Source: a virus. Taken from it: a DNA stretch of 58,349 nt. Below the pieces are notes generated by a model that saw nothing but the letters and a program-made list of their open reading frames with translations, was not told the DNA's origin and made no database searches. The stretch covers positions 1 to 58,349 of IMG/VR virus record IMGVR_UViG_3300009001_000013. The stretch is one strand, 5' to 3'. Below, piece by piece: positions 35,428 through 47,451 of the stretch; position 1 is the first letter of the stretch, and every line of letters starts with the position of its first letter. The position numbers were made by a program, and so were the translations under genes.

Positions 35428-35533
35428 GCTGGGTCAGCCAGCTTTACTATCTTGGTATTGTTACACCGGCTTGATGCAGGAGTTTCATTACCTTACGGAA
35501 GCCCTCGCCCTTCAAGGCGGGGGTTTCTTCTTC
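35428..35533 (+). terminator. Terminator region at the convergent arm junction
   Basis: A small stem GCTGG/CCAGC (35428-35442) is followed by a strong stem CCCTCGCC/GGCGGGGG (35502-35509 / 35516-35523) with TTTCTTCTTCT after it, typical for rho-independent termination of the plus strand. The strong stem lies inside the C-terminal codons of the M43 peptidase gene on the other strand. Confidence 0.5.
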
Positions 35534-36631
35534 TCTATAGAATGGGTCAAGCTCCGCGCCAAAGCAAATAGTCCCCCATTGAGACAGAACAATTGTGAAG
35601 TCTGTCACAGTAAAGAACCCATCGCCATTTAAATCCCCCTCAAGCCAATCGAGGTCACCGAAATGGTCTAGGCACATAAGTAAATCGTTAGTGCCTACTA
35701 CGTAGTCACCACTAACATCCCCGATACAGAAATCATCATCGTCTGTGTCAACAATGTTTGGTCGTGTGATAGATAGGATTGCATGCATCCGTTCTATCTG
35801 ACCGGCAGTGAAATTATGACGGCAAGAATCAACATAGTAATCCATGTGATTGTCGTGAACGTAGTCTGCCCAAGGTTGTGCCGGGTTCCAAGCCGGTGGG
35901 CATATAGGGTTGTCACATGACCAGCTCACCTTTATTGGGGGAGTGTCGCATACATAGTCTCCAGTCTCAGCGCAGTCACCTAAGTCCTGCCCGCAAAAGT
36001 CAACGGATTTGAATACGTGTTGCAATCCTAGGTAGTGACCAACCTCATGAATCATGGTTTTGTTTTCGTCTCGTGCTCCCCAGAGATGGTCTCCAAGCCT
36101 GCCAAAGACATTAGACCTTATCCATACACCATCGAATGGAGTGGGAGCTTGAGATGTCCATGCAAAACCTAGAATTCCAGAGCAGAACTGCGGGAATATG
36201 TGCACGTTCATATAAATATCTTGGTCCCAAATTAATGGCTCAAGGTAGTTTTCTGCAACAGTCCAGCCGTAGTAGCTGTACGGGACACAGGTGTTGTATT
36301 GAGCCAGTAGCTCTTGTCCCCCTTCCAGCTCATCGAGGTCGTGATACTCTATGCCATGTAAATCAAAGGTGAACAGCGCCTCTTCGAATTCCTCGTTAAG
36401 ATGTTCGTGCGCATCCCAAACAAGGTCTTCACTGAAGTAACTATAGTCATAGATTGAGCTGTCAGTATGATGGATGTGAACGACATAATTAATGTTCTTT
36501 AATGTGACCGGGTCATACAAGAAGCCCATCATCTTGGGCTGAGTCGCCACATCCCCAAATACCACGCAAGAGTCCTGAGCTGTTGCAGACAAAGCAACAG
36601 TTGCCATGACTAGGGCAAGTAGCCGTGTCAC
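35447..36631 (-). CDS. Secreted M43 (cytophagalysin/pappalysin-type) metallopeptidase with dockerin-like repeats
   Basis: A 394-residue protein. Signal peptide MTRLLALVMATVALSATAQ (1-19). The zinc motif HEVGHYLGLQH is at 195-205 and the met-turn region is NHMDYYVDSC followed by FTAGQIERM, the diagnostic layout of M43. Cysteines and CDTPP fit the family. Residues about 299-353 hold two dockerin/EF-hand-like calcium repeats (GDVSGDYVVGTNDLL and GDLNGDGFFTVTDF). No type IX sorting domain is evident. Its gene is coupled to the holin by ATGA, so it probably is expressed at lysis. It could digest envelope or matrix proteins during exit or entry; the target is unknown. Confidence 0.8.
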   Translation of the reverse strand: MTRLLALVMATVALSATAQDSCVVFGDVATQPKMMGFLYDPVTLKNINYVVHIHHTDSSIYDYSYFSEDLVWDAHEHLNEEFEEALFTFDLHGIEYHDLDELEGGQELLAQYNTCVPYSYYGWTVAENYLEPLIWDQDIYMNVHIFPQFCSGILGFAWTSQAPTPFDGVWIRSNVFGRLGDHLWGARDENKTMIHEVGHYLGLQHVFKSVDFCGQDLGDCAETGDYVCDTPPIKVSWSCDNPICPPAWNPAQPWADYVHDNHMDYYVDSCRHNFTAGQIERMHAILSITRPNIVDTDDDDFCIGDVSGDYVVGTNDLLMCLDHFGDLDWLEGDLNGDGFFTVTDFTIVLSQWGTICFGAELDPFYREEETPALKGEGFRKVMKLLHQAGVTIPR

Positions 36632-37074
36632 CTCTTTGACTTTTCAATGGTGCGTCCAGCAAAGTACGCTCCGAACGATGTCAGCATAAGGATTTGGAGC
36701 AGGTCAATGTAGCTGTCTTTTACATTGAACGGCCAGTTGTCCATACTGTCGAACACCATGGTCAGGCAAAACATAACCATAAGTGTGATGAGTGTCACAG
36801 GTCTGATAAGCTTAGCGAGCTTGACATCACTGTTCATGTCTGCCTTCCACCGCTCAGTCACGTTGTTTTGATACGCAATCTCTGCGTCTACCCTAGCCTT
36901 GGCTTCTTCTGGTGAGATGCCGGGCTCTTTGTCCAGTAAGTTCTTTACAATACCAAGCGCACCTTGGTCGGGCAACAGGTCACCTACAGTGTTGAGTATG
37001 TTAGGTGCTTTCTCGGCAAGCCATTTACCAAGGTTTGTGTCCTTAATTTTTTTGTTCTGCTCCATCGAAATCAA
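36628..37074 (-). CDS. Holin-like protein (3TM holin family type)
   Basis: A 148-residue protein with a helical cytoplasmic part (about 1-90) and two hydrophobic spans, VTLITLMVMFCLTMVF and LLQILMLTSFGAYFAG. This resembles the Holin_3TMs group used for phage and GTA release. It would open the inner membrane for the lysis proteins. The start may be at 37074 or nine bases later. It is coupled to the M43 gene downstream and overlaps the DUF5675 gene upstream. Confidence 0.75.
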   Translation of the reverse strand: MISMEQNKKIKDTNLGKWLAEKAPNILNTVGDLLPDQGALGIVKNLLDKEPGISPEEAKARVDAEIAYQNNVTERWKADMNSDVKLAKLIRPVTLITLMVMFCLTMVFDSMDNWPFNVKDSYIDLLQILMLTSFGAYFAGRTIEKSKR

Positions 37075-37525
37075 TGTATGTTATTGTTACCTCATCGCCA
37101 CACTCAATGGCCTCAGCTATTGGTGTATAGATTCTTTTGTATGCGTTTACCGAGCTGCCTACAAACCCATCAGACTGTACGTTCTCTGTCTGGGTGTCGC
37201 CCACCAGCAAGCAGCCACTAGTGTCGTCGTCGTCGTTACCAGCATGAATGAGTATGTATTCGAAGTTCGGCACGTTCCTTACCCATAGCATACCCTTATG
37301 AATATCCCCGAACCTGCTAGAGTATTTGGAATGAAAACCACCTACTGTTCTAAGAGTAATGTCGTATGTACCAGCAGGTATTCTCGTTTCGTGCATGACC
37401 TTTACATCTCTGTATTCATCCTCAAGAGTATAGGCCATGAACTTGCGGTCACCACTTGTGATGTCAAACAACAAGCCTAGCGTGCTGTCTTTCTGGCTGC
37501 TGAATCTTACTACTTCTAATTTCAT
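37043..37525 (-). CDS. DUF5675 protein, probable lysis or peptidoglycan-related protein
   Basis: A 160-residue beta-rich protein with TLEDEYR, then RIPAGTYDITLRTVGGFHSKY and ILIHAGNDDDDTSGCLLVG, the DUF5675 signature (HAGN...DTxGCxLVG). The His and Cys resemble an L,D-transpeptidase-like site. The family often sits in phage lysis cassettes and in integrated elements, and its activity is not settled. No signal peptide was seen, so export would need the holin. Its stop overlaps the holin start. Confidence 0.7.
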   Translation of the reverse strand: MKLEVVRFSSQKDSTLGLLFDITSGDRKFMAYTLEDEYRDVKVMHETRIPAGTYDITLRTVGGFHSKYSSRFGDIHKGMLWVRNVPNFEYILIHAGNDDDDTSGCLLVGDTQTENVQSDGFVGSSVNAYKRIYTPIAEAIECGDEVTITYIDFDGAEQKN

Positions 37526-40500
37526 TCTTCTATTGATTCAAGGTATCGTTCTTCCACAAAGAAGCTGGGTCTTACAAGACCAAGATATGTGTCAAGGAAC
37601 AGCTTAAACGATTTGTATTCGCTTGTCTCCATGCTCTCTCTCTTACCTCTGAGGTATGCGTAATAATCTCTAGCGTTCTTCAATTGTTTGGGTAGCTGTC
37701 TGGCCTCTCGCATAAACCTCTTGTAGTCTTCTGGGTAGGAAGATTGCATATGTTTCTCTGCTACTACAGGTTTAATGCTTGACTTGAACTCGTTGGTGGT
37801 TCTAATCTTGTCAAACGGATTGTCTGCCTTGGACACCAACTCAGAGACACGCTCTCTACCCTGACCCTCAGCCAACTCAAGACCATATCTCTCGGCAACG
37901 CTTTCGTATCCAGCGAGAGCAGATTCCGAAGACAACCTCCTATCTCTAGCCAAGTCATCCATCTTCTTAACCAGCGTCTCAACTTCCTTGCTTGACAATC
38001 CGATTAGTTGACCGCTCATCAACCCCAGCTTTAAGAAGTAGTGCATAGTGAGGGCATCCTTATCTTCTGGCCTGACGTAGTATTCCATGCCAGTAGACGA
38101 GACCACCTTGTTGTTCGGCAGGTTAATGTTGGCTATGGTTGTTCTCGCATCATCAAGGAAGTCACCGTATGGACCCAGTCCACGGAAGATGGTTTGCGTC
38201 GCATCCTTTGGCGCACCCTTGTAGTACATGGTTGCCCCCTTGTTAAGTCGAACCCATCTCTCATACCCGTCTTCGTCACCCAAGTTGAAGTCACCCTCTC
38301 TTAAAACATCCATCGGATACCATAGATATCTGTTCATCGCTGACTTGATTCCATTGTCAAGGACTCCGAACGGAGGCAATGGCTGAGCATCGACAGCAAC
38401 CTGCGTAGCAATGTCTCTCCAAACGTTCTCTGGCTCCATCTTCTCTTCTTCCTCATCACCCATGACAAGAGATGCCAGAGCTGGAATGATAATCTTGTTT
38501 ACGTATGCAAACAAAGTGAGTTCAGCAGCGTGTCCGACCAGAGCGATGGCCCCTTCTTTCTTGGCTTGAGCATCGCCCTTCGCAACTCTTATTACGTCCG
38601 AAGAGATGCTTCTCTTTTTGTTGACGGCGAATCTAGAAAATGGCAGTAGAATATTTTGAGCGAGGTAGGCGATACCAGACTTGATTCCCTTCTCTTGTTG
38701 GTAAAGGTCAGCGGCTTCCCTTGGTGTAGATGCGGCTTGGTCTTTACTCACCATGGCATCAGCGTAACTCAGTGCTGTTGCATTGGGGTTAGCTGCCTCC
38801 GCATCCCAATCAATCTCATCAAAGCTTTGGATTACCCCTTCGCTCATGAGCGCGTCAGCGTAGAACGTAAACCATGAAGCTACCGCCGCTACTTTATCGG
38901 TACCCTTGAGGTTCTGCAACGACCAGTTGGTAAACTTCTGAGTGACCTTCAGAACTGCTGGCTCATCAAACGAAATCTTACCTGTGTATGGGTCGATGTT
39001 TCCTGCTTCGTAATCCCTCTGGAATACAGGCGAGTTCTGTAACAGTTTGTACCTTCCGTCATCAAGAGCCATCTTGCTGTCCTTTCTGACTCCAGTCTTC
39101 AGTGTATATGCTGCCATCTCGTACACGGTGCCGACCAGATATGGGATGGCTTGCAGTGGGTTCTTAGTTTGGAACATTACCGAGGTTAGAACCGTGCTTT
39201 GCTTAAGGGTCTGAAAGAACACGCCGCCAAAAGCCTTAATGACCACAGCGTTTCTTACAACGTACAGAGGGTTGATGAATCTAGTTCCTTTGACTCTGAA
39301 TGTAGGCTGAAATACCGGAGGAATCTTGCCCGTATCCTGCTGCACGTACAGCATAATCTTTCTTTCAAGGTCTTTTCGGGCGGACGTGTCAGGGATAAGG
39401 TTCTTCATTGCATCGCTATTCAATGCATGATTGGCAGCAACCACGTCACCAACAGTGTGCGACAATATGATGTTATCCCTTAGCGTTCTCTCGTTAATAG
39501 AGAAGAAGTCAAGGCCAATTCTATTCTTACCCTTAAGTGAACGAGGATTTCTTTCGAAGCTACTGCCCGCAACTTTCTTAGCACCTGATAAGGATGTACT
39601 TGCCAGCTGCTCTTGCAGCGACTTTCGCATTCTAAGAAGGTCATCTACGTCGGTAACACCAGTCTCAGGAATCACCTCAAACGCAGTGTAGTTCTCTTCG
39701 GCCTCTAGTTCCTTGCCCAAGTATCGCTCTACGTAGTTTCTGAACTGAGGCATAAGTGTTGAATGAATGTCGCTCATGAACTGAACATACTCAGCGATGT
39801 CTTTTCTTTCATTCTCGACCTTGCTGATTAGCTCCGGCAATGTTGTCCCACCCCCGAACAGAAAGCTGTATGCGTCTTCAAATTCATCCAGCTCCTCTCT
39901 GCTAAACGTCTGCTGCTGTTCGTAGTAGTCAATCGTTCTACGCATGGCATTTCGAATCTCGATATACCACGCAGCTTCAGCACCTCCTCGCTCGCCCTCG
40001 AATTCTGGCATCTGCCTTGCCATGGAATATAACTGAGCAATAGCGTTGTCCATTTTGGTGGTAACGCTTCCTCCCTCCTCTGTAATTCTATTGACTTCAG
40101 CTTCAATTAACTCTACAATTTGAGCGTGCATGAAGTCAGCCTTAGCAAAACTGTTAGTCATCTGAGCAAGCCCGACAGCTACTCGCAGCTTAGCAAACGT
40201 AAGCCTATCCGTTGGTATGAGGTTGGATAAGTAGGAATTAACTGTGTCGAGCGGCCCGAGCAACACCTTGGCCCTAGCCCTTAACCCTTTAGAATTGGAG
40301 AGCTTTGCGATAGAGCTAGGCATGTCAATCACACCCTTGACAAGCGAGTGCATGTACCCGACACCATAAACAGAATCGTTAATGATGTAGTCGTCTAGCC
40401 TGTAGTCAAGGTTGATGATGTGGTGACGCTTGAGCATCTGAAGTCGCCTCACTAATTGGTCAATGTCCAAGTCGTCTACACTGTAGATTCCTAGAATGTC

Positions 40501-43500
40501 AGCAATCTGGCTGTCCTCAAGAAGCTTTTCGATGTTGGCTGCAATGCGAGGCACAAGTACGTCATAGATGATAGCATCCTTCTGCAGCTCCTCCTTTGTC
40601 GATGCCTGCTCTGCAAGAATCTGGGTGATGATGTCAATGTGCGCTGGATTGTTTTCATCAAGCGCAATCAACTCGCCAGTATCAGGGTGGTTGACGGTGG
40701 GATTGTCATCAATAAAGTTGAGTATAGCGCGACGACTGGAGGATAATCGGCTACGCTCGTAGTTCTTTACCAGTTTGTCATACTCTTCCTGAACGCTTGT
40801 CTTGTTCTTAGCCGCTCTCATCTGAGCTCTAGCCATGAATAGAGATTGTCGTCCAAGCTCTTCCATCGCGGAGTATGAACTCAGCACAGCCCTCAGTGTT
40901 TCAGCATCTGTCTTAGGAAAGGCTACCCCTATGTACGATTCAATCTCTTTATCGAATACAGCCTTTGATTTCGACATGGAACTGATGGTCTGCATCAGGG
41001 TCTTAACAAAGTTTTCAAGCTCTGCCTGTGGAAGCAGGGATGGGTTGATAGCTGCCAACCCGTTGGCAATCTTTGCGTATGTCGTAACGTTTTTAGGTGC
41101 GGCTCCACGTCCACGAACCTTAGCCATCCTCTTGAGTCTGGCTTGCAAGTCTCTTGCGTGTTTAATACCATCCAAGTATCTCTGCATCTCGGCCTTTGTA
41201 TCACGCTGGTCGAAGATGACGGAAATCTTGTCAATGAATGACTGCATAGCATCGAGCCCCTCCTCCTTTATTTTCTTGCCGCTTGTCCTATGAGCTTGTC
41301 TTATGTACTTAACCAACAACTTGACCTGCCCTCGTGTGAACGGAGTCTTAGCATTCTCCTTCATGCGGGCATCAATAAGCTCAATAGCCTTGGCGAGAAA
41401 CTCGTTGAAGGTTTCAGATTTATCCCTAAGCTCTTCGAGAGACTTCTTTAGATTCTTGGCTTTAGTAGACATCTTGCGAGTCTCTGCCGCATGCTTCATA
41501 GCCACGCGCATACCCTCTCTCTTGCCTTGAGTTCGGCCTTGCTTGTAAGCAACAGCTTCTTTATACAAACGCTCGGCTGCCTCCTTGGTCATACCATAAC
41601 CAGTAAGCGTTTCGATAACCTCCTTCTTCACTCTGACAAACGCATCCATCTGTGCGCTCTCGTCAATACTGGTTACGGGATTCTTTCTTCTCTTATCCCT
41701 TTTAACAATTGGTGATGGGTACTTAGCGTCAATCATCTGTGACACCAAACGAATCAGGTTACCCTGCGCCTTACCCTCCTCTTGCACCATGTTCTGTGCT
41801 TTGCCTTTCATCCTAGCCATGCCGTATGGCTGGTTCCTGAGACCGAGTAGAGCGTACCACGCAGCAGCAGCTGAAGCTTTTGGGTTCTTCCTGTCCTTGT
41901 ACTTGTTCTCTGAGAACGTTTCAACAAATGGCTCTAAGTCAAAGCCTCTTTCAGTAGTAAGCACATCTTGAGCTGGCACCTTATCCTTGAACAGGTGGAG
42001 CTTCGGTTGCTTTTTATTGCCGTTCTCGTCTACTTGAATTACAGCCGCAGGGAATATGGCTGAAGCCTCAGCATCCTCTACGAATGTCACATCGGAGTCA
42101 ATCTCAATAGCTCCATAAATCATGCCGGGAGGCACTCCTTGAAGGAACTCTTCCGTGAGCATCCGAGCTACAATAGCCTTGACCATGCTACCACCCTGAG
42201 TCTTGCCTACTTTATCCGTATCAAGCATTTCTTGGATGGCATCTCTAGCCTCTTGATTCTCCTTGAGCGCAACGCCCATGTTGACAAACATCCTATCCGT
42301 AAAGTACTTACGCTTGCCAAAGGTTGATGCCTTGACATCGCCCATGTACTCAAGGATTCTCTCTGCAACCTCAGCTCTTGAACCGTCAATCCTAACTGGT
42401 CGGTCTTTAGGGAATGTCTCTTTAAAGGTGTCGATGAGTAGCTTATTAAATACGGACTCAGCCATCACGCCCTGTTCGACTAGTCTTCTCAGAACAATCT
42501 CAGAAGCTCTAAGCGCACCAGTGTTGCTGAATAGTTTTTCTTGGGTTCCGCTAATCAATGTAAAGAACACCTTTCCGTCTGGCGAAGCCTTACGCATAGC
42601 GTTAATCTTGTCAGCCACAACCTTTGCCTCTTTAGTGTCAGCAAACGCCCACACATTTCCAGACTTGACCGGGTAGAATACTCCACCACCTCCGCTAAAT
42701 ATCAACTCATCATCGAAGTAAACATCCCCAACCATGAGGTTGTCAGGAGATGATGTCATAATAGTCCTATCCTCCAGTAGTTCAAATGCGTCCTGATTGT
42801 GGACGACAGCTCGGCGCATTAACTTCTTGAACTCAGAGTCATCCTTAGCATACTTGTTAGAAAACCTACCAAACTTCTGAGCCTTGTTGGTAGACATGGC
42901 CTCCGTGTTTTTTACGGTCTGGCCCGGAAGAATGTGCTGGAACTTAACTGTGGTTCCATCCTTGTTTACCACAGTGAATCGCTCGTCAGCTGGCGACACC
43001 TTCTCTACATCTTTCGCCAACACCAATGCTCCGATTTGAATTACCTCAGAAGCGGACACGATTGGGTTGCCGTCTCTCTTGTCGTAAAACCAGCTATGTC
43101 TAAATGGATTCATGCCAACCTGTACCCACCCTTCGAGCTTTCCAATTGCAAGGTCGGACATGTTGTACTCCTCGCTATTCATAATCTCTTCAGCCCTGTC
43201 TCTGAGCTGTTGTGGATTGTGGTTGTTCCAATCCCCAAACATCCTAGCGATTGTAGTCTTTGACTTTTCAATGGCTATGTTCAACGCGCCCTTGGCTACC
43301 GAATGAAACTCTACGTTGGTAGCTAGAGCTGTTTGCCCGTACCCAATAGACTTGCCGCCTAGGTTTGGAGCACGTTCATCGCCTCTTGCTCCTTGGTGGA
43401 TAGACACTACCCATACATCGTAATTATCGTAAGCTGGAATATCAAGTCTCAGACCCACGTAGTAGTTGTCAGGAATTTCTTTGTTCAATCCAATGATGCC

Positions 43501-46500
43501 TGACTCAAGCTTGTTGCTAGTTAGTGCCGCACCGATATCAAGTGTGGTTGGCACTTCAGGAACAGTTACAAATGGTGTGATAGGGGTCTCTTCCCTGACA
43601 ACCTGAATGTACTGCTCTTGAGTAATCTCTTGCGCCACGTAATCCTTGAGAGCGTCAACCACCTTGGGGCTTCGCTTCTGTCTCTGGCTCTCATCTAGTT
43701 TTAGCTGTTCTCTTCTTTCGTCTAGCTCTACTTCTGTAACGCCTTCAGCAGCGAGGTATGAATCTCTACCCGGCTTGTCTTCAAGCGAGGTAAGCATAGC
43801 CTGCGCTTTGCCGTTTGCAAGACGTTCAGCGTAATCAAACGCCTCCATGTAATCATTGAGACGGATACCCGCTCCAACTTCTCCCTCACCCTTGACAAAG
43901 AAGACTACGTCTGGTTGATTCTTAAGGGGTGAGTCGGGGTCGTTCCATCCTTCGGGTGCGAATTCAGAATTAAAGTCCAGTCTAGCTACCGGCTTCCATC
44001 CGTTGCCCACGTAAATGTTTTCAAGCTTGGTTGCAAAGGCATCGTAAAACCTACCACCCTCCCTTTGTCTGATTGTTTGCAAGGGCTTGCTAACCGCACT
44101 GAGTTGAGAGTCTGGGTTCTTAAACAGTCCACCCATATATCCGTTAGCCTTTACGTAAGCGCCAGCTAAACCATCTTTGGTCATGAACAGCTTGCCGCCA
44201 TCGTCTAAAATCTGTTGGGCATCTTCGACAGTCATTGGGTCTACCTGCAAGAACATCTTCATCTTGAGCTCTCGCATTCTATCAGTAGCCTCTGCCATTG
44301 CGTTAGCATACCTAGCCGCATCAGTAACCTCCTCGACATCACGCATCCTCGCCTCCATGCCCTGAAGCTTTGGAGATGTCAAGTCCTCAAGCTCTACCAT
44401 CATGGCATTATAGCCAGCCTTGATAGCTGCCGTGCGCACATCTTCGGTAGCCGTTAGCTGTTCGCCTGCTGCCATTTGACCGGTGAGCTTCTGCATTGCA
44501 TCAACTAGGTCTTGGAACTTAGGGTCTGCATCTAATATGTCGATGTCTACGCCGGGGATTGTCTTGAGTGCTTTATTGATGAATGACTTGAGAGTGTTAA
44601 TCAACCCCTTCTTTACGGTGACGTCCACGTTACCTGCGGTCATGTCACCTAACAGCTCAACCAAAAACTCCTCAGCAATACCCTTGTTTTCTTTAATGGC
44701 CTTGCGGATATCACCAGCTTCTCCGTATTGTTTCAGGAAGTTTATATACTTAGCCCTTAGTGGTCCAGTAAGAGACGCAAAGAACGCATCCGCCATTCCT
44801 GTCACAGCTTCCTCTCCGAGAGATTCAATCACGACATCATGGAAAGCCTCATGAAAACCAGTGTTCTGTAAGATGGCAGGGGCGTAGATATGTATCTCAC
44901 CCTTAGACATCCATGTTCCCCTAGCTTCACGACCAGTGGCGGCTTTGAAAGAATCAAGCGTCTTGTGAATCGTAACACCCTTGAGCTTACCTGTCTTAGC
45001 TAAAGCTTTAACAGCCGTAACCACATTCCTTAATGATTTCTGCATCTGAGAACCACTCTTGAATGAGCCGTCGTCAAACTGGTCGATAGTTTCAAACGTG
45101 GTGCTGTTGATAGCATCAAGAACCACATCAGCATTTTCAGCTGTTACGGTTACAGAGTCAGCGTCCCCTTGGAACAGCTCACCATATCCGTTGTATCTCT
45201 TGTCAATTCTAGAGATACCTCTAAGCACTCTATTGGTTTCGCTTTCAATGTCGAGGTCATACTCAAGTCCGAACTCACCGTCAAGCCTACCTCTCTCATC
45301 AAGGAGGGCTGTCATCTCTGCCTTAAGCTTAGCCCTTGTGTCTGCATCTTGAGCCCTACTGTGCTCAATACCAAGCCTAGCAATTCGCTTCTGAATTTCT
45401 TCAATCTTCTGGAATGCTTCTGGGTTTGACTCAGCAAGACCCTCGTAGAACTTTGCTCTGCCTAGCTTTCTGTCCCAAGCCCTAGCAATGGCATCGTTCA
45501 GTTTCTTACCAATCTCTTTTCTCAGCTCCTTGGTTGGTGCATTGTCATAGTCTTCAGCAAGCTTGGTGATTACAATCCTGTCTCTGATGGAATTGGTTGC
45601 TGTTACTGCGAGAGAAGAAGCTCTTAATCCACCCGCAGCTACACCCGCAGCGCCAGCGACCCCGCCTCCAAGAACAACACCCGCAAGCCAACCCTCTTTC
45701 GTTGCGTCCCACAAGCCCTCCATGCTAAACTCCATGTTGGGGTTTACCTTGCTGTTTACGTAGTACTGCCCGGCTGCGGTAGTGCCTTCAGTTAGACCTT
45801 CTTCTACCATACCTAGACCAACACTCTTCATCAAGCCTCTCGCAAAGCTTTCTACGCCCTTGCGACTAGCGGCTCTTAATGTATTAGTAGCAATAGCAGC
45901 ACCAACAAACGCTGGCGCTCCCTCCAAGAACCCCATTACGCTGGTGTATCCAGCCTTTTCAAAGCCGTCCATATCTTGGAACCACTTCTCGTCGCGTACT
46001 TGATTGTAGGTAGACGCCATGCCCATGAATGTGGTAGCTCCAAAAGCTCCCGCATGCTGAGTCCTTTGAGCACGCTTGCCCATCTGAGCAGACACCGTGG
46101 TTCTGCCCTTTTTTAATGTTTCAAGAGTTCTGTTGGCTTCGATAAACTTTCTCTGAGCCGCAACCCTTTCGGCGCCCCTTAGTCCTTTTACAGCTTTTGC
46201 ATAGCCCATACTACGCATCGAGGCGCCCCTAGTTACGTAACCCGAAGCAATAGCAGCACCCATCATAGGCACCGACTCTCCACCAAGTCTAAGTGATTCG
46301 TCAATCCACTGGCTGATAGCTTCGTCAGCAAGCCCCACCTCACCAGTAGACAGCTCCTTTCCTACCTTGTCCATCACGTCGCCAGTCCTATCCCAGTAGC
46401 TTTGAAGTGAGAACGGAAGTCTCTTTGCCGCTTCTTCTGCAAGTCTTTTACCCTCGTCGGCTGACTCAATTAGGTATCGGGAAACCATGTTGTCATCTCC

Positions 46501-47451
46501 AGCCATTGATGCCCACATATCACCAAGCATGTACTTAGCTCCGGCAACATTCTCCTTCCAAGCCTTTGAAACAGTAGCCATGAATCCGGACGAATTGTCC
46601 TTGAGGTACTCGTAACCACCAACGTATGTGTCATTGTTCAAGTCAACCACAACTCCGAACTCATCCATGAGGTATCGCTCGTACTTGGACAGTTCTTCAG
46701 GGTTGTTCTTAACGTAATCAGGAAGCAGCTCGCGGAGCTTTGGCCCGCTCACCATGGCTGCCTGACCGCCGAGTCTTTTCATGGCCTCATTAGCCCTCTC
46801 CTCGACAGTGTATCGCTGGCTCAACACTTCACCCTCCACCTCGTCGCGGCCAAGCATGTTGTTGGTCAGGTCATCACTAGTACCTGCCAGCAAAAATCTG
46901 TTTATCTCAAAGTCTGGGTCTTCAGACTGGTAAAGTAGGTCAACAATCTCTTTCTTGGCTGCGTCTTTTTCATCTGCTGTACGAGCAGAATCATACCGCA
47001 TCATAGAGTCATTAATGAGACTGTTTCTTACAGCGCTACTCCCTTGGTCGAAGGGCGCGAGAAATACTTGGCCTGATTCGGCTACCTCTCTGTATCTGTC
47101 TACGTCAAAGTTCTCATATACGCCCTGTAAATAGGCGTTATCAAGGTCTTCTACGTAAGCATTGAGCAGGTCGGCTGTGTACTCAGGAACAACCCTGTCA
47201 CCTATCCGTGGTCTTTGAAGTAAATCCGAAACTGTAGGCTCTGGTCTTCCACCCAGAACTGTACTCGGCTCTGAACCCAACGAACCCACCTCCGAAATGG
47301 GCTGAGACGGTGAGGCTTCTTCGCCTTGTATCTGCGGCTCTGAAATTTTTTTTTTTTCGTCGTAGTACTTCGAAACTATCTGATTAATTTCAGACATACT
47401 TGCGCCCCGCTGTCGGGCTTCTTCAACTAGAGCCTTAAGTTCTGGATTCAT
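37522..47451 (-). CDS. Giant internal virion / polyvalent protein, 3309 residues
   Basis: The largest gene. The N-terminus has a short helical start and an A12 codon run (K33-K35). Gly/Ala-rich hydrophobic helices near 395-410, 505-520 and 590-605 could insert in membranes. A zincin-like motif HEAFH lies at 867-871 (FHEAFHDVVIESLGEE). Near 1445-1480 is a module with RHSWFYDKRDGNP seen in large polyvalent phage and plasmid proteins. The middle is long coiled coils. Hydrophobic helices return near 2980. The size and position between virion and lysis genes match giant ejection proteins. No RNA polymerase motif was found. Confidence 0.7.
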   Translation of the reverse strand: MNPELKALVEEARQRGASMSEINQIVSKYYDEKKKISEPQIQGEEASPSQPISEVGSLGSEPSTVLGGRPEPTVSDLLQRPRIGDRVVPEYTADLLNAYVEDLDNAYLQGVYENFDVDRYREVAESGQVFLAPFDQGSSAVRNSLINDSMMRYDSARTADEKDAAKKEIVDLLYQSEDPDFEINRFLLAGTSDDLTNNMLGRDEVEGEVLSQRYTVEERANEAMKRLGGQAAMVSGPKLRELLPDYVKNNPEELSKYERYLMDEFGVVVDLNNDTYVGGYEYLKDNSSGFMATVSKAWKENVAGAKYMLGDMWASMAGDDNMVSRYLIESADEGKRLAEEAAKRLPFSLQSYWDRTGDVMDKVGKELSTGEVGLADEAISQWIDESLRLGGESVPMMGAAIASGYVTRGASMRSMGYAKAVKGLRGAERVAAQRKFIEANRTLETLKKGRTTVSAQMGKRAQRTQHAGAFGATTFMGMASTYNQVRDEKWFQDMDGFEKAGYTSVMGFLEGAPAFVGAAIATNTLRAASRKGVESFARGLMKSVGLGMVEEGLTEGTTAAGQYYVNSKVNPNMEFSMEGLWDATKEGWLAGVVLGGGVAGAAGVAAGGLRASSLAVTATNSIRDRIVITKLAEDYDNAPTKELRKEIGKKLNDAIARAWDRKLGRAKFYEGLAESNPEAFQKIEEIQKRIARLGIEHSRAQDADTRAKLKAEMTALLDERGRLDGEFGLEYDLDIESETNRVLRGISRIDKRYNGYGELFQGDADSVTVTAENADVVLDAINSTTFETIDQFDDGSFKSGSQMQKSLRNVVTAVKALAKTGKLKGVTIHKTLDSFKAATGREARGTWMSKGEIHIYAPAILQNTGFHEAFHDVVIESLGEEAVTGMADAFFASLTGPLRAKYINFLKQYGEAGDIRKAIKENKGIAEEFLVELLGDMTAGNVDVTVKKGLINTLKSFINKALKTIPGVDIDILDADPKFQDLVDAMQKLTGQMAAGEQLTATEDVRTAAIKAGYNAMMVELEDLTSPKLQGMEARMRDVEEVTDAARYANAMAEATDRMRELKMKMFLQVDPMTVEDAQQILDDGGKLFMTKDGLAGAYVKANGYMGGLFKNPDSQLSAVSKPLQTIRQREGGRFYDAFATKLENIYVGNGWKPVARLDFNSEFAPEGWNDPDSPLKNQPDVVFFVKGEGEVGAGIRLNDYMEAFDYAERLANGKAQAMLTSLEDKPGRDSYLAAEGVTEVELDERREQLKLDESQRQKRSPKVVDALKDYVAQEITQEQYIQVVREETPITPFVTVPEVPTTLDIGAALTSNKLESGIIGLNKEIPDNYYVGLRLDIPAYDNYDVWVVSIHQGARGDERAPNLGGKSIGYGQTALATNVEFHSVAKGALNIAIEKSKTTIARMFGDWNNHNPQQLRDRAEEIMNSEEYNMSDLAIGKLEGWVQVGMNPFRHSWFYDKRDGNPIVSASEVIQIGALVLAKDVEKVSPADERFTVVNKDGTTVKFQHILPGQTVKNTEAMSTNKAQKFGRFSNKYAKDDSEFKKLMRRAVVHNQDAFELLEDRTIMTSSPDNLMVGDVYFDDELIFSGGGGVFYPVKSGNVWAFADTKEAKVVADKINAMRKASPDGKVFFTLISGTQEKLFSNTGALRASEIVLRRLVEQGVMAESVFNKLLIDTFKETFPKDRPVRIDGSRAEVAERILEYMGDVKASTFGKRKYFTDRMFVNMGVALKENQEARDAIQEMLDTDKVGKTQGGSMVKAIVARMLTEEFLQGVPPGMIYGAIEIDSDVTFVEDAEASAIFPAAVIQVDENGNKKQPKLHLFKDKVPAQDVLTTERGFDLEPFVETFSENKYKDRKNPKASAAAAWYALLGLRNQPYGMARMKGKAQNMVQEEGKAQGNLIRLVSQMIDAKYPSPIVKRDKRRKNPVTSIDESAQMDAFVRVKKEVIETLTGYGMTKEAAERLYKEAVAYKQGRTQGKREGMRVAMKHAAETRKMSTKAKNLKKSLEELRDKSETFNEFLAKAIELIDARMKENAKTPFTRGQVKLLVKYIRQAHRTSGKKIKEEGLDAMQSFIDKISVIFDQRDTKAEMQRYLDGIKHARDLQARLKRMAKVRGRGAAPKNVTTYAKIANGLAAINPSLLPQAELENFVKTLMQTISSMSKSKAVFDKEIESYIGVAFPKTDAETLRAVLSSYSAMEELGRQSLFMARAQMRAAKNKTSVQEEYDKLVKNYERSRLSSSRRAILNFIDDNPTVNHPDTGELIALDENNPAHIDIITQILAEQASTKEELQKDAIIYDVLVPRIAANIEKLLEDSQIADILGIYSVDDLDIDQLVRRLQMLKRHHIINLDYRLDDYIINDSVYGVGYMHSLVKGVIDMPSSIAKLSNSKGLRARAKVLLGPLDTVNSYLSNLIPTDRLTFAKLRVAVGLAQMTNSFAKADFMHAQIVELIEAEVNRITEEGGSVTTKMDNAIAQLYSMARQMPEFEGERGGAEAAWYIEIRNAMRRTIDYYEQQQTFSREELDEFEDAYSFLFGGGTTLPELISKVENERKDIAEYVQFMSDIHSTLMPQFRNYVERYLGKELEAEENYTAFEVIPETGVTDVDDLLRMRKSLQEQLASTSLSGAKKVAGSSFERNPRSLKGKNRIGLDFFSINERTLRDNIILSHTVGDVVAANHALNSDAMKNLIPDTSARKDLERKIMLYVQQDTGKIPPVFQPTFRVKGTRFINPLYVVRNAVVIKAFGGVFFQTLKQSTVLTSVMFQTKNPLQAIPYLVGTVYEMAAYTLKTGVRKDSKMALDDGRYKLLQNSPVFQRDYEAGNIDPYTGKISFDEPAVLKVTQKFTNWSLQNLKGTDKVAAVASWFTFYADALMSEGVIQSFDEIDWDAEAANPNATALSYADAMVSKDQAASTPREAADLYQQEKGIKSGIAYLAQNILLPFSRFAVNKKRSISSDVIRVAKGDAQAKKEGAIALVGHAAELTLFAYVNKIIIPALASLVMGDEEEEKMEPENVWRDIATQVAVDAQPLPPFGVLDNGIKSAMNRYLWYPMDVLREGDFNLGDEDGYERWVRLNKGATMYYKGAPKDATQTIFRGLGPYGDFLDDARTTIANINLPNNKVVSSTGMEYYVRPEDKDALTMHYFLKLGLMSGQLIGLSSKEVETLVKKMDDLARDRRLSSESALAGYESVAERYGLELAEGQGRERVSELVSKADNPFDKIRTTNEFKSSIKPVVAEKHMQSSYPEDYKRFMREARQLPKQLKNARDYYAYLRGKRESMETSEYKSFKLFLDTYLGLVRPSFFVEERYLESIEE

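Follow-up and report, generated by a model that had tools for sequence, protein, structure and literature searches.

The gene described here encodes a zinc endopeptidase of the M43 (pappalysin) type and belongs to an overlooked, phage-only branch of that family, found in dozens of uncultured phages. It lies in a window of 58,349 nucleotides (IMG/VR record IMGVR_UViG_3300009001_000013, positions 1 to 58,349), the source of which is probably a phage of marine Bacteroidota bacteria. Its identity as a phage-borne M43 peptidase gene is near certain, and we have high confidence that it is a lysis-linked accessory gene. As to its function, the reading that we prefer, and to which we give a probability of about one half, is that it encodes an accessory, late-operon secreted protease of the pappalysin family (M43B-type), made as a zymogen, which would cleave proteins of the host envelope, cell surface or matrix at about the time of lysis and so help progeny release.

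The open reading frame covers exactly 35447..36631 on the minus strand, where the original prediction had placed the M43 gene; it starts with GTG and encodes 394 amino acids. The N-terminus, MTRLLALVMATVALSATA followed by QDSC, resembles a signal peptide as judged by eye and by hydropathy, in agreement with what had been claimed. This putative Sec signal peptide (36578..36631, minus strand; presumed cleavage before the Q) has a counterpart in the hydrophobic N-termini of nearly all full-length relatives. The catalytic domain (residues 133-286; 35774..36235, minus strand) scores 59.8 bits on the Peptidase_M43 profile (PF05572), for which the cut-off is 23 (E 3.9e-16; profile positions 10-151 of 152), which bears out the family assignment first made from the letters of the DNA. 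The zinc site HEVGHYLGLQH (residues 195-205; 36017..36049, minus strand) and the Met-turn NHMDY (residues 261-265; 35837..35851, minus strand) are likewise intact, as had been proposed, the Met-turn being present in 62 of 62 distinct relatives. The closest solved sequences are those of mirolysin, pappalysin-2 and ulilysin. An AlphaFold model built from 68 phage and bacterial sequences reached a pLDDT of 83 and a pTM of 0.74 (with phage sequences alone the model was weak, at a pLDDT of 66) and matched the structures of ulilysin (Z 23.4) and mirolysin (Z 22.9), the best match outside the pappalysins being a snake venom metalloproteinase with a Z score of 13.8. The phage protein thus shares the catalytic fold (Z 23), the zinc motif and the Met-turn with mirolysin from Tannerella forsythia and with ulilysin (M43B), about 25% of the structurally aligned residues being identical, but it differs from them in being phage-encoded, in its position in a lysis operon, and in carrying a C-terminal EF-hand pair with a phage-specific tail.

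The pattern HExGHxxxxxH is kept in 82 of 83 related viral loci, which argues that the reading frame is not a chance one. In the single exception, L053:3823-4987(+) on a 63.5 kb phage record, the M43 copy is split over several frames by decay or sequencing error. Since the Gly of HExxHxxGxxH is replaced by Ser in 22 of 62 distinct relatives, it is not certain that every copy is active; the window copy keeps this Gly (residue 202) and would be expected to be proteolytic. Purifying selection on the gene is strong: the median dN/dS over 48 pairs is 0.066.

Cys22, the fourth residue past the presumed cleavage site (36566..36568, minus strand), is invariant (73 of 73) and is a candidate cysteine switch. 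Mirolysin likewise has a cysteine a few residues past signal cleavage: its zymogen begins Q-R-T-C (Q20-R-T-C23), and Cys23 blocks the zinc (PMC8259862). Cys22 of the phage protein occupies the same post-cleavage position as this switch cysteine, in a part of the model whose pLDDT, below 50, is too low to show zinc contact. A cysteine just past the signal peptide is also found in 68 of 74 bacterial relatives. Elsewhere in the protein, the fact that C220 and C228 are both lost together in L157 and L158 suggests that these two residues form a disulphide.

Downstream of the catalytic domain, residues 302-356 (35564..35728, minus strand) form a dockerin-like EF-hand pair flanked by C302 and C356, with 12-residue loops that start at D305 and D333 and may bind calcium. 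Of the 62 distinct copies, 59 have both repeats of the calcium loop. The module shares its duplicated EF-hand loops and its C-terminal placement with both Dockerin_1 (PF00404) and the GC-type dockerin domain (NF041540), but scores below threshold for either one (17.1 bits against a cut-off of 22.9, and 12.3 against 29, respectively). The two loops thus justify the term dockerin-like, as it had been used, but do not establish a dockerin. The same C-to-C module is found many times per genome in related Flavobacteriales, where it ends 0-3 residues from the stop in 18 of 20 sampled copies (the other two are elsewhere in the frame), and it is C-terminal in all 8 instances within the bacterial loci examined. 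In these genomes, the pair was observed at the extreme C-terminus of secreted host proteins (L250-L269, from G035-G040). The suggestion that such repeats are typical of Bacteroidota surface proteins is thereby corrected to a C-terminal module of many secreted proteins of related Flavobacteriales, whose genomes mostly lack cohesins: in six related genomes, which may not represent the actual host, cohesin had no match in five and a marginal one in the sixth, while the T9SS protein SprA is present in five of the same six. A cellulosomal dockerin is disfavoured, both by the profile scores and by the absence of cohesins from most of these genomes. Rather, the EF-hand pair would seem to address secreted proteins, or to mediate their interactions, from the C-terminus, possibly as an uncharacterised sorting or docking signal. 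Profiles for T9SS type A and B sorting domains (TIGR04183, TIGR04131, PF18962, PF13585) did not match the window protein. Short phage outgroup forms stop in the same way as the bacterial copies, with the cysteine plus one residue, whereas the main phage clade adds a conserved extension, which in the window reads GAELDPFYREE (residues 358-368; 35528..35560, minus strand). Its DPFYRE-type motif is shared by 38 of the 62 distinct phage copies and is missing from the short outgroup forms.

Relatives of the gene are encoded on at least 212 IMG/VR stretches, but a tblastn search of the INPHARED phages gave a single weak match. PHROGs profiles did not match the protein, and a literature search on phage M43 or pappalysins found no report of such a gene among the papers covered. 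The original remark that few phage genes resemble it hence applies to isolates but not to metagenomic phages. In a tree with 79 Bacteroidota M43s, the 59 usable phage catalytic domains form one clade (SH-aLRT 100); the bacterial sample consisted of the best pattern matches, so that this separateness holds against the sampled bacteria rather than against all. A host origin, as had been proposed, is consistent with the Bacteroidota origin of the domain and of the module, but a recent capture of the window gene from a host is rejected by the grouping of the phage copies apart from the sampled bacteria. A search for the neighbouring holin over 399 Flavobacteriales genomes returned partial or distant matches, in 9 of them.

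The branch is not the only entry of the family into phages. Two contigs of sister phages, 60-65 kb long (L206:7962-9860(-) and L211:8095-9993(-)), carry a 632-aa M43 protein with a longer C-terminal part, encoded near the junction of the lysis and RNR genes together with the same holin family. These copies group with the bacterial copies L054 and L062 (SH-aLRT 99), outside the phage clade. Because they are nested with bacterial sequences, M43 genes have been captured by phages at least twice, both times beside lysis genes.

The window gene is the last one of the lysis operon, and its GTG start overlaps the stop of the upstream holin gene (phrog_3427, E 2.4e-22; 36628..37074, minus strand) by 4 bp. 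The operon also includes a gene for a DUF5675 protein (PF18925, E 3.5e-26; 37043..37525, minus strand), a candidate endolysin whose HAGN...SGC motif resembles YkuD-type active sites. The coupling of the peptidase to a holin, which had been noted in the window, recurs in most loci: of the 53 distinct loci for which upstream sequence is present, 41 have a holin of the phrog_3427 family that precedes the M43 gene on the same strand by no more than 2 kb, and in 20 of those 41 it abuts or overlaps the M43 start. The linkage persists across several downstream contexts and, in L002, with an unrelated holin (phrog_2359), and a DUF5675 or Amidase_2 gene is found within 2.5 kb of the M43 gene in 15 loci. 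The remaining 12 of the 53 loci lack this holin in the 2 kb upstream. Some loci have a different holin (L002, L028), some show a small gene for a coiled-coil protein with one transmembrane segment, and in a subgroup (L013, L025, L030) the M43 gene is about 10-15 kb from the holin; its neighbours in L036 and in the L025 group are structural or packaging genes. Save for the subgroup at a distance from the holin, the M43 gene is thus a late, lysis-linked gene. Two observations from these neighbourhoods may be added. In many of the lysis cassettes (L014:7706-8304(+), L004:1767-2371(+) and others), the one-TM coiled-coil protein recurs paired with a thioredoxin-like protein that is secreted and has no CXXC. 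Furthermore, the window encodes a 3309-aa protein (37522-47451(-)) that has an internal HEAFHD motif and is possibly another metallopeptidase domain carrier, with no Pfam match above cut-off.

The accessory nature of the gene follows from near-relatives that keep the holin-terminator junction without it. The order of DUF5675 gene, holin, terminator and RNR genes is shared by L164, whose holin is 92% identical, and by L170, neither of which has an M43 gene. When the two flanks of the window gene were aligned separately to L164 by local alignment, the left one matched at 83% and the right one at 81%, and they met within a few bases. One side of the junction falls at the holin stop, the other close to the end of the conserved DPFYREE motif. 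The variable tail of the protein, its last ~28 codons (35447..35533, minus strand), corresponds by homology to the terminator region of L164 and L170, which is non-coding in these relatives without M43. This part of the reading frame also contains a hairpin that resembles an intrinsic terminator, that of the convergent RNR operon (35497..35528, plus strand; -23.6 kcal/mol, z -4.1), with a U-rich tract after it. Furthermore, 26 of 34 holin-bearing records that were searched whole, many of them fragments, have no M43 copy. The data fit either a gain of the gene by the window lineage or its loss by L164 and L170. An essential lysis component is disfavoured by the empty sites and by the whole-record searches, in which the records may be incomplete. 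Being accessory, the gene is not a core lysis component.

In the reading that we prefer, the peptidase would be translated together with the holin and exported by Sec as a zymogen, with the N-terminal cysteine on the zinc keeping it latent and with the host-type EF-hand module at its C-terminus. Once active, it would cut proteins of the host envelope, surface or extracellular matrix at about the time of lysis, such that progeny would be freed from the cell and from its debris or aggregate. A bolder form of this proposal, in which marine Flavobacteriales phages have a dedicated proteolytic lysis arm, captured at least twice, with a latent pappalysin that is co-translated with the holin, addressed by its EF-hands and switched on at lysis to dismantle the protein surface, seems rather unlikely to us. 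The position at the end of the late operon could equally be explained by a permissive insertion site. Alternatively, the protease may shave phage receptors and other surface proteins from the infected cell and its neighbours, which would prevent superinfection and the loss of progeny on debris. We regard this as a tentative possibility; it agrees with late secretion, the host-type module and the accessory status, and with the further secreted or surface proteins, bearing T9SS signals, that sister phages encode in the same neighbourhood. However, the holin linkage suggests that the protein acts at lysis or later, and not in the early phase of infection, in which exclusion would help most.

A periplasmic protease could also stand in for a spanin by breaking the attachment of the outer membrane, the third step of Gram-negative lysis. 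The gene is at the place of an o-spanin, often after the small one-TM coiled-coil protein, which is weakly similar to Rz-like spanins (phrog_739, E 0.0026), and only unimolecular spanins were found in Bacteroidetes phages (PMC12596118). Nevertheless, the protein matches none of the PHROG spanin profiles and has no lipobox, Cys22 being preceded by Q-D-S, and L164 and L170 have nothing in its place. The lack of a lipobox and the empty sites, along with the holin-bearing records, many of them fragments, that have no copy, make this role improbable. We are about as sceptical of an auxiliary or ecological enzyme, set free at lysis to break down external protein or else kept to bring nutrients to the infected cell: the putative secretion is in line with it, and ecological roles have been proposed for surface enzymes of flavophages (PMC8776804), but the late, lysis-linked position leaves the infected cell little time to benefit. 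Least probable of all is a virion component that clears surface or matrix protein at entry. The adjacent structural or packaging genes in L036 and the L025 group would fit it, and the conserved phage-only extension could be a docking peptide, but a cleavable signal peptide is unexpected in a virion protein assembled in the cytoplasm.

Little is known about how Bacteroidota phages open and leave their hosts, and few of their spanins have been recognised. In this context, the M43 protein is a testable candidate for an added release step or for superinfection control, since it is widespread, conserved and holin-linked, yet belongs to no PHROG family and is nearly absent from sequenced isolates. 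A precedent for the reading that we prefer is the zinc metallopeptidase of the Maribacter phages Molly and Colly, a lipoprotein of 199 aa that was proposed to attack the extracellular matrix (PMC8776804). Like the window protein, it is a secreted metzincin of a flavobacterial phage; however, it is annotated as a member of the matrixin family, matches less well in structure (Foldseek rank 6, E 6.7e-6), was not found by tblastn, and at 199 aa has no room for an EF-hand module. Furthermore, Cryophage encodes T9SS cargo, namely an endoglucanase, a glycoside hydrolase and a PA14 protein, all with T9SS tails (PMC7468147). These, too, are host-type secreted proteins, encoded in flexible genome regions of a Bacteroidetes phage, but they have the T9SS tails that are not recognised in the window protein.

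In these phages, the place where the lysis operon ends has repeatedly received host-type secreted proteins. In L175, L176, L177, L185, L192-L194, L197, L203, L208, L209, L212, L218, L219 and L224, the slot behind the holin is filled by a secreted protein of ~690-840 aa. The copies that were read (L175, L177, L192, L209) have repeats of the GCTDPxAxNYxP type and end in a tail like that of T9SS type A, which in L177 scores above the cut-off for TIGR04183. A protein of ~347 aa with a signal peptide mostly comes after it. Proteins of the T9SS type B (CHU_C) kind are also encoded near lysis genes, at L205:2567-3955(-), L206:6949-7998(-) and L211:7079-8131(-), the assignment being profile-tested in L205 and L206 and made by similarity in L211.
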